From positions 2,622,501 to 2,686,500 of the forward strand of contig NZ_CP013659.2 in NCBI RefSeq assembly GCF_001465795.2: 64,000 bases of DNA, given 5' to 3'. The notes under the pieces were generated by a model, which worked only from the letters and a program-made list of their open reading frames with translations, ran no database searches and was not told where the DNA came from. The first letter of the stretch is position 1. Each line of letters begins with the position of its first letter. Below, piece after piece: positions 30,247 to 32,000 of the stretch. The position numbers were made by a program, and so were the translations under genes. The stretch is from Planococcus rifietoensis (lineage in GTDB: Bacteria > Bacillota > Bacilli > Bacillales_A > Planococcaceae).

Positions 30247-30732
30247 TTAATCGCCATCCCTCGAGGCGTTGCGCAAGACCGACCAGCCGAGCAAAAACAG
30301 GAAAGCGGCTGTTCCGAGCCATAGCGATTCATAGAAAACGGGGTCGCCAGTGTCCCTGACTGTATGCAAATTCAATAGCAGGCGGAACACCAAGCTGTCG
30401 AATATCAGCAGCACGCCGCCTCCAATCAAGGCACTCCCTGAAAAACGCGCTGGCCAAAAGGCTTTGCGCCTAGCCAAATCGGCAGCAATCCATAGAGACA
30501 AAACCGTCAACGCCCAGCCGATGACCTGGTAAATTCCTTCCCCCGTCAAAATCGCTTGGGGACCATTGCCTTCGTAGAAATGATGCCATTGCAAGAAAAA
30601 ATGGAAAATGCTTTGCTCGAGCACTGAAAACATCCCGGCACCGAACAATAAGCCTGCCCAAAAGTTCCGGGAAGTGTGGACGCGCCGGTTTCTTGCTGTC
30701 GTAAGATCTGTCTTGCGTTCTGCCGAAACCAT
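30247..30732 (-). CDS. DUF2243 membrane protein
   Basis: 161 residues with four transmembrane helices (about 25-45, 63-82, 96-115, 137-155). The DUF2243 signature is HHFYEG following FGAGMFSVLEQSIFHFFLQW, with two His in the first loop, and NLHTVRDTGDP. Function unknown. The ATG at 30732 has AAAGGGGTGG. Convergent with pcm, with no obvious terminator in the 21-bp gap. Confidence 0.88.
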   Translation of the reverse strand: MVSAERKTDLTTARNRRVHTSRNFWAGLLFGAGMFSVLEQSIFHFFLQWHHFYEGNGPQAILTGEGIYQVIGWALTVLSLWIAADLARRKAFWPARFSGSALIGGGVLLIFDSLVFRLLLNLHTVRDTGDPVFYESLWLGTAAFLFLLGWSVLRNASRDGD

Positions 30733-30892
30733 TCGATCCACCCCTTTTGAATTCCGTCCGTATCCGTTTTCCATTTATACCCGCTCTGCCGGTCCCTTAA
30801 TCGCGCTGGGCTGTTCAGTGCATTGCACGTCCAACATAATAGACAATGCCATATCCCGCACACCAATTACATTATTCAAGGAGGCGACCCAT

Positions 30893-31597
30893 TTGCAGAA
30901 TTCCAAAACCATGCAAAGTGAAATCGGCGGCTATATTTCAACCGTCATCCGTGAACACTTCGGGAAAGGCCCGACATCTGTATTCGTGATTGTGAAACCA
31001 CCTTTTGTCATCGTCCACCTCAGAGGTTTCCTAAGCCCGACAGAAAAGATTTTGCTCCAGAAAAACGAGTTTAGGCGCGTGATGGAAATCCGCCATTTGC
31101 TGATCGAGGAACTGAAGCCAGATATTTGCGCTGCCTTCTCCCGTGCTTCTGGCGAAAAAGTCGAATCGATTTATTCCGATTGGCATCTGGAAAACCAGAC
31201 CGGCATGCTTATCGGGGTCATGGCTAGCCGGGAAGCTGCCGCTGAATTTGACTGGCAGTCCGATGCAACGCAAGAAGCCCTTCACGATTCAGTCGTGGAA
31301 GCCAGCCGAAAAGCCGAAAAAAAACCTGAAAGCACCGAGTTGTTCTGGTTGAATGACCGGACCTTATTGATTGAACGGACGGGCTTCTTAGTGGAAATTG
31401 AACGTGAATTGATTCGCAATGGGTTGGCCGAAGAACTGAAACAAGTGAAACGGCCTCTCGAAAAGCGCTTGCTTTTGAAGGAAACCCCGTTCCCTGATCT
31501 GCTCAAACGGGATATCCGTGAGATTTTCCTCGATTGGGAATTCTCGACGGACATCAGTTATATTCTTGTCTTGCTTGAGCCGAATAAACATTCTTAA
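30893..31597 (+). CDS. DUF2294 / MpsC-like protein with two tandem repeats
   Basis: 234-residue cytoplasmic protein made of two copies of a domain of about 110 residues (DUF2294, named MpsC in databases for a sodium-translocating system). The repeats share a pattern: copy 1 FVIVHLRGFLSPTEKILLQ...EIRHLLIEELKP and copy 2 LLIERTGFLVEIERELIR...LLLKETPFPDLLKRDIREI, each ending in an SDWHL/LDWEF segment. No membrane segment. No mpsA/mpsB neighbours, so the role is unclear. Start is TTG at 30893 with AAGGAGG eight bases upstream; an ATG at 30911 is possible. Confidence 0.85.
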   Translation: MQNSKTMQSEIGGYISTVIREHFGKGPTSVFVIVKPPFVIVHLRGFLSPTEKILLQKNEFRRVMEIRHLLIEELKPDICAAFSRASGEKVESIYSDWHLENQTGMLIGVMASREAAAEFDWQSDATQEALHDSVVEASRKAEKKPESTELFWLNDRTLLIERTGFLVEIERELIRNGLAEELKQVKRPLEKRLLLKETPFPDLLKRDIREIFLDWEFSTDISYILVLLEPNKHS

Positions 31598-31641: not shown

Positions 31642-31833
31642 TTAACCGACAGTCGACTGTGCAGTTTGGCAATGCGGGCAATGTTCGTATTCCTTTTCTG
31701 CCAAGTTCTCCACATACTCCAGTTTATCGGTAAACTCTCTTTGATCTATAGGCGTTTGCAAAAAGCCGCAGCTATCTCCTGCAAACTGGCTATGATGGAT
31801 TTTTTTCGTTCGATGATCTACAAAATAACCCAT
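31642..31833 (-). CDS. small Cys-containing protein, unknown function, controlled by a structured leader
   Basis: 63 residues, no signal or membrane segment. Three Cys: GDSCGF near residue 22 and a CPHC pair near residue 52, a plausible zinc or metal site with nearby His (KKIHHSQF). The body reads QTPIDQREFTDKLEYVENLA. AGGGGGGAAG precedes the ATG. I do not recognise the family. The gene lies behind a roughly 130-nt leader with promoter, multi-hairpin fold and terminator (31834-31995), so its expression is probably conditional. Confidence 0.8.
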   Translation of the reverse strand: MGYFVDHRTKKIHHSQFAGDSCGFLQTPIDQREFTDKLEYVENLAEKEYEHCPHCQTAQSTVG

Positions 31834-31849
31834 GACTGCTTCCCCCCTA

Positions 31850-31966
31850 TAAAAAAAGCCGAAAAGAGCCTCTCAAAATGAAAGGAATCTTTTCGGCTTT
31901 GCCTCCGGCGCTATGGTCCGCGGCATTTGACCTGTTATATACAGTTATTGCTTTTCAATGATTCCT
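31850..31966 (-). ncRNA. structured 5' leader with terminator, candidate riboswitch-like element
   Basis: Minus-strand leader between promoter and the 63-residue gene. Closing helix P1: AGGAATC (31966-31960) with GATTCCT (31889-31883). Inside are three hairpins: ATTG/CAAT (31959-31947), CTGT/ACAG (31944-31932), and TGCC/GGCA (31925-31900, inner GCG/CGC, 3' bulge). After P1 comes a 13-bp terminator stem (31900-31888 with 31867-31855) and a seven-T run. P1 3' strand and terminator 5' arm share bases 31888-31889, and the terminator arm also takes sequence from the last hairpin, so folds are mutually exclusive. It does not match any riboswitch class I can recall, including c-di-GMP, glycine, SAM, TPP or T-box. 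Confidence 0.6.
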
Positions 31967-31995
31967 ATTGTACAGGAACACCCACTGTGTGGCAA
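31967..31995 (-). promoter_or_regulatory. promoter of the structured leader
   Basis: TTGCCA (31995-31990), 17-bp spacer, TACAAT (31972-31967). Predicted start coincides with the first base of helix P1. Confidence 0.7.
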
Positions 31996-32000
31996 AGAAA

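Follow-up and report, generated by a model that had tools for sequence, protein, structure and literature searches.

A covarying RNA core that probably acts as a transcription attenuator before several gene families in Planococcus and related bacteria

Guanidine-II (mini-ykkC) RNAs consist of two hairpins that carry the same loop and are joined by a variable linker. In the target RNAs of ANTAR proteins (EutV, NasR, AmiR), two small hairpins with like loops lie upstream of an alternative terminator, and the RAT sequence of the BglG/SacY family is a single protein-held hairpin of 29–30 nt that partly overlaps the terminator (both as given in the relevant parts of PMC3369931). The HMP-PP and guanidine-IV ON riboswitches have conserved bases at their hairpin tips, and their folding precludes the terminator (passages of PMC8632094 and PMC6478431).

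Here, we describe an element in the leader of a gene for a 63-residue protein (C63), located in a 64,000-nt stretch of the Planococcus rifietoensis genome that we call the window. Like ANTAR targets, the element pairs like-looped hairpins before a terminator, and the repetition of a loop on two hairpins argues for a protein that recognises loops two at a time, following the ANTAR logic (PMC3369931). However, the second hairpin accompanies only 48 of the 156 copies in the bulk set defined below, some 40–90 nt away, and no ANTAR protein was found in the 10 carrier genomes examined. ANTAR targets carry two hexaloops of the form A1..G4, whereas the loop of the element is N-A-U-A-G-N, closed by C-G and with a bulged A, so that the pair of A1/G4 hexaloop hairpins typical of ANTAR targets is not found. 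As in the RAT, the hairpin overlaps the terminator in part, but its sequence differs from that of the RAT, its genes are not sugar operons and the CAT_RBD domain is missing from 6 of 14 carriers. Unlike the HMP-PP and guanidine-IV riboswitches, the element has its core before the terminator with only the outer arm in common, and it matches neither in Rfam. Some copies resemble guanidine-II RNAs in that a second hairpin repeats the loop of the first across a linker of variable length; the loop is nevertheless not the ACGR of that class, and Rfam gave no match at threshold.

Rfam 15 returned no family at gathering threshold for the leader or for the loci of 20 relatives, lax scans yielding sub-threshold matches only, which bears out the impression of an earlier note on this DNA that no known class fits. 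The same note had seen a likeness to the cyclic di-GMP-I riboswitch, which we discarded: there is no Rfam match, and the GCAAAGCC stretch is not conserved, reading ACAAAGCC, AUAACGCC or AUAAGCC in relatives. A literature search for the element, including term look-ups in the portions of PMC11109978, PMC8632094, PMC6429828 and PMC2965389 that were available, produced no description, although this does not prove absence. The element appears to be a new class of attenuator whose mechanics are of a known type, and the alignment of its core and the model built from it could seed a new Rfam family.

The leader lies on the minus strand of the window. A promoter-like site, TTGCCA-N17-TACAAT (31995–31967; 10 of 12 matches), is present as previously reported, though a match to this motif is by itself at chance level (one found against a shuffle mean of 0.8). 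Downstream, a 48-nt core occupies 31936–31889 (model match G000:C1:2654389-2654436, E 3.9e-9). It is closed by a short GGU/GCC stem and further contains an A-rich internal loop, stems that covary and an apical loop. The closing stem joins GGU (31932–31930) to GCC (31897–31895) and has moderate support, from one-sided variation only. The lower stem joins UGCC (31925–31922) to GGCA (31903–31900) and shows two-sided covariation, and the upper stem joins CGG (31920–31918) to CCG (31908–31906), where two of the three pairs covary; the 3′ strands of both stems, CCG and GGCA, lie at 31908–31900. The loop between them, ACCAUAGCG at 31917–31909, has the consensus ACNAUAGNG and is kept across 147 cores of 48 nt.

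A 13-bp intrinsic terminator (31900–31851) begins within the core, with arms at 31900–31888 and 31867–31855 and a T run to 31851. It confirms the terminator that the earlier note had placed just before the ribosome-binding site, which is read in the sequence as AGGGGGGAAGC (31848–31838). The GCC at 31897–31895 is common to the closing stem and the 5′ arm of the terminator, and the idea of a structured leader overlapping its terminator is thereby borne out. The gene that would be regulated, C63, starts with the ATG at 31833 and runs for 63 codons to 31642. Convergent with it, on the plus strand, is an MpsC/DUF2294 open reading frame, listed as 30608–31597 but probably starting later; its domain covers residues 100–206 (PF10057, E 4.5e-26). 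Elsewhere in the window, a SAM riboswitch (53138–53031, minus strand) and a T-box leader (10932–10708, minus strand) reached the Rfam threshold.

The fold of the 123-nt leader was better than that of 200 out of 200 shuffles (z −3.8); its 89-nt pre-terminator part was less striking (z −1.9), with 7 of 200 shuffles equally good. The functional architecture had been proposed to be a 7-bp helix, P1, closing three hairpins. The complementarity itself stands, AGGAATC at 31966–31960 matching GATTCCT at 31889–31883, and prefixes of the window leader of 84–100 nt favour the P1 fold at about −20 kcal/mol. As a conserved switch helix, however, P1 was rejected: of nine orthologous leaders, only L001, L002 and L007 have it perfect, L005 and L008 depart from it by a single mismatch, L009 could form 6 bp of it in a shifted register, and L003, L004 and L006 lose more of it. 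P1 may thus be a local addition in the window leader and, because the prefixes favour it, may act there locally. The conserved part of the leader is the 48-nt core at 31936–31889, not P1 with three hairpins. Compensatory changes among orthologous leaders, which the earlier note had named as possible support for P1 and the three hairpins, were seen in the core helices; its observation is partly confirmed and its interpretation, a sensing switch for one small gene, partly supported.

The stretch common to orthologous C63 leaders is approximately GGUNAAAUNNNNCAGACNAUAGNGCUGNNNNCAAAGCCGAAAAG, with stems that vary by compensation. A first alignment of 24 sequences had 93.6% of its cells paired and contained 24 two-sided changes; its covariation score reached 0.319, compared with 0.175 (sd 0.017) for shuffles and at most 0.129 for slid partners. 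A second alignment of 30 sequences drew 22 of them from the window's family (f1) and eight from a further family (f41); in it 95.2% of cells were paired, with 51 two-sided changes and a score of 0.512 against 0.205 (sd 0.019) for shuffles and at most 0.168 for slid controls. Two pairs that showed no variation in the first alignment changed here: the U-A pair is A-U in seven of the 30 sequences, and the C-G pair is U-A in eight. The closing stem, of three to four pairs, changed on one side only. The fixed loop sites were at least 95% identical in the 147 48-nt cores, with the exception of the first A of AUAG (84%); counted within the C-G-closed loop, 81 of them have A at position 1, 142 have A at position 4 and 146 have G at position 5. 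The core thus bears the structural mark of the transcriptional riboswitch kind, namely a conserved fold that has bases in common with a terminator and lies before a gene.

The distribution of the element was examined with a covariance model built from the core (R1). At a cut-off of E 0.01 or better, it matched 42 of 46 genomes of the window's genus, with up to seven copies each, and across the order it matched 46 of 261 genomes, within 3 of 19 genera. The window's own genome holds four copies: the one in the window (C1:2654389), one before a DUF1259 protein gene (G000:C1:3032162-3032209, L107), one before the gene of a 118-aa protein (G000:C1:580039-580086, L105) and one before a GNAT and DUF1259-like pair (G000:C1:2278583-2278630, L106). 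Among 398 genomes of the class, three loci beyond the window's family were matched, L129, L130 and L131; on inspection, L130 alone held up. L131 was set aside for want of the apical hairpin, and L129, L210, L255 and L132, the last a weak match within the window's family, because they lie in or against coding sequence. In f41, the family of L130's genome, 14 of 159 genomes had matches at E 0.1; on reading, 12 were genuine (L130 and L199–L209), L210 was a chance match, and L211, a core-like stretch with no fitting terminator, was ambiguous. A second model (R2) added nothing new in the class genome set and, in 398 genomes of the phylum, gave a single weak match beyond the window's genome, L255, apparently within coding sequence. 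The wide searches covered genome samples under strict filters and may have overlooked weak copies, so the lack of a match elsewhere does not amount to absence.

A scan for a single fixed pattern, with genus names attached, found 38 stretches: 31 in Planococcus and Planomicrobium, four in Alkalicoccus, two in Oceanobacillus and one in Virgibacillus. Matching loci (L199/L212 and L204/L229) place Oceanobacillus and Virgibacillus in f41. The genera that carry the element are halotolerant, and regulation in them has been little studied. For counting, a bulk set was assembled from 179 loci with 184 model matches, which were reduced to 156 by removing copies identical over the core and 60 nt on either side; L130 is the sole f41 copy among them. 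Because close orthologues stay in this set, its counts are not independent events. One C63 gene (L015, genome G069) has a leader without a model match, the element seemingly lost, and a tandem layout occurs in L027–L029, L138, L161 and L222, where a second core lies directly 3′ of the C63 gene or of another core.

Within 700 nt, the first recognised gene was C63 after 64 of the 156 copies, DUF1259 after 43, MpsC/DUF2294 after 17, a RibT-like GNAT acetyltransferase after 15, a family of 111–130 aa after nine and YetF after one; seven copies had no assignment (broken copies are included in these counts, and Pfam was run on examples). Some copies head two-gene sets, C63 with DUF1259 or GNAT with DUF1259. 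The device had been thought to serve a single gene, but 149 of the 156 copies precede one of six gene families, and since these families are unrelated, the element looks like a regulon-wide attenuator, not a single-gene riboswitch. A single RNA element ties C63, DUF1259, MpsC/DUF2294 and the others into one apparent regulon, and one trigger would therefore explain them all together.

The f41 copies have a setting of their own. In all 12, the mpsC stop codon falls between 7 nt before the core and 26 nt inside it: in L199, L201 and L208 the frame enters by 26 nt and stops at the UAG of the conserved loop, and the remaining nine frames end close to the start of the core, at most 7 nt before it or 4 nt inside it. 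The next gene encodes an anti-sigma-type HATPase_c_2 protein in six copies (L199, L201, L203, L205, L206 and L208; Pfam was run on L199 only) and is an open reading frame of 55–73 aa in the other six, of which the L204 one had no match in Pfam or NCBIfam. All four Alkalicoccus loci have the element ahead of C63, and in three of them an mpsC-like gene lies convergent just past C63; the fourth, L214, has none within its ~600 nt of downstream sequence. The window shares this convergent pairing of C63 and MpsC, a family that is thus a neighbour here and stands downstream of the element in other genomes. Upstream of the element in L214, L221 and L224, all from Alkalicoccus, is a gene resembling a RelA/SpoT-domain small alarmone synthetase (PF04607 in L214, by look in the other two).

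A terminator follows 155 of the 156 copies, compared with 69 of 468 controls in which the downstream 75 nt were shuffled. The core GCC lies within the terminator arm in 153 of these 155, a figure that is partly built in, as the search window favours that position. Promoter-like sites at 9 of 12 matches occur upstream of 74 of the 156 copies against 34 in one shuffle each. The median distance from the core end to the first recognised gene is about 67 nt, and copies in the Planococcus group are mostly no more than about 200 nt away from the start codon they precede. In the window leader, the terminator fold reaches −36.6 kcal/mol, compared with −30.0 kcal/mol for the best fold in which the closing stem is enforced. 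Because the terminator fold is the more stable, termination would be the default, and a bound factor could therefore tip the fold. Covariation is no proof that the two folds exclude each other, since the GCC strand of the closing stem is also fixed by the terminator.

These features suggest the following mechanism. By default, the nascent leader would fold into the terminator and transcription would stop before the gene. A trans-acting factor would bind the core hairpin at the ACNAUAGNG loop and the A-rich internal loop and hold the GGU/GCC closing stem, for which a binding energy of more than about 7 kcal/mol would suffice. The held stem would strip the outer base pairs from the terminator arm, and polymerase would read through the weakened terminator into the gene, making the element an ON switch. 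The factor would most likely be an RNA-binding protein acting as a dimer.

The steps of this mechanism differ in strength. That the element is an attenuator of some kind is highly probable. The covarying structure, the bases in common with the terminator and the several downstream gene families are observed directly. Action as an on/off switch is probable, and for an attenuator the ON direction, which we infer, is likely. The trigger is somewhat more probably a protein than a ligand. Taken together, the sequence evidence tilts slightly towards a cis-acting transcription attenuator of a small regulon that is switched ON by a dimeric RNA-binding protein. We put forward more tentatively that the element represents a new protein-responsive antiterminator system, in which a dimeric RNA-binding protein unrelated to the ANTAR and BglG families recognises the ACNAUAGNG loop of a single hairpin or of a pair and switches on a scattered regulon. 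If so, the C63, DUF1259, MpsC, GNAT and YetF genes would answer to a common signal in Planococcus, Planomicrobium, Oceanobacillus, Virgibacillus and Alkalicoccus.

The preference for a dimer comes from the second hairpin. An upstream hairpin with the same loop was found in 48 of the 156 copies, against 0.7% of mononucleotide shuffles, typically in the form GGAAA-ACAAUAGUG-UUUCC and without the A-rich internal loop. Its stem stays paired when the sequence changes (GG/CC to AG/CT; GGAAA/TTTCC to CGAAAA/TTTTCG), and part of the copies, two Alkalicoccus loci among them, show compensatory changes. Of the 48, L009 at least seems to be a chance occurrence. The hairpin was not found in the remaining 108 copies, which include the window leader and all 15 GNAT copies. 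A like loop on two hairpins suggests a dimeric protein, and we prefer one because a third of the copies have it; a bound protein would explain the repeated loop no less well than a metal or nucleotide signal.

A new class of small-ligand riboswitch, in which a metabolite or ion bound by the core itself stabilises the closing stem and turns the gene ON, is a possible but rather unlikely alternative. The apical loop is fixed beyond what its stems demand, core and terminator have bases in common, many copies stand before different genes, and other very small aptamers also compete with a terminator; moreover, with 108 copies lacking the second hairpin, the core alone may suffice. Against this, the gene set points to no common ligand, and a second hairpin bears the same apical loop without the A-rich internal loop, which suggests recognition of the apical loop as such. 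It is improbable that the element is a fixed terminator with a stabilising hairpin, serving as a 3′-end or mRNA-stability element for genes that use their own promoters or leaky read-through. In f41, where all 12 copies fall right at the 3′ end of mpsC, it could simply be the mpsC terminator, and L130 has, by eye, a promoter-like sequence past the terminator. Yet Planococcus-group copies usually lie close to a gene start, upstream promoter-like sites exceed those in shuffles, and a plain terminator needs no separate covarying hairpin with a fixed loop. Ribosome-mediated attenuation through a leader peptide can be given almost no weight: an ATG lies inside the core in 98 copies, but the other 58 have none and no conserved frame was found by eye.

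For the dimeric-protein reading, several candidate factors can be judged by their occurrence in carrier genomes. C63 itself might bind the hairpins and regulate its own family of leaders, being the commonest downstream gene (64 of 156), small, with invariant His and Cys residues and a model weakly like a nucleic-acid-binding domain. This is very doubtful, and C63 was rejected as a general factor, as no convincing copy was found in 12 f41 carriers or in carrier G194; one f41 carrier, G752, has a C63 fragment (E 0.005) with an internal stop. Control by a known antitermination protein is scarcely credible, whether of the ANTAR (EutV/NasR) or the BglG/SacY type. Two like-looped hairpins, the second beside the terminator, do reproduce the ANTAR layout, but PF03861 was found in none of 10 carriers examined (excluding Alkalicoccus) and in 3 of 10 non-carriers, and position 4 of the C-G-closed loop is A where ANTAR targets have G. 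CAT_RBD (PF03123) is present in 8 of 14 carriers examined, including the window's genome, but missing from G031, G012, G259, G194, G213 and G763, the first of which has seven copies of the element. Both families were rejected as the single common factor. ANTAR proteins, BglG-type proteins and C63 all fail in that role because many carriers have none, though these exclusions would weaken if different carriers used different factors. The element thus appears to be a compact attenuator whose common effector belongs to neither of the two antiterminator families examined.

The C63 protein has invariant H7, H13, C22, C52 and C55. It occurs in 28 of 200 genomes of the window's family, this one included, and often in several copies. 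Searches of PHROGs, PADLOC, PDB sequences and plasmids gave nothing significant, and a structure model (pLDDT 88.7) showed weak similarity to the N-terminal (Zn) domain of Ada. In L073 and L086, C63 has an in-frame stop, and by eye the core and terminator are retained. In L007 (genome G172), a stretch between the end of C63 and the convergent neighbour resembles, by look, the terminal part of a transposase gene.
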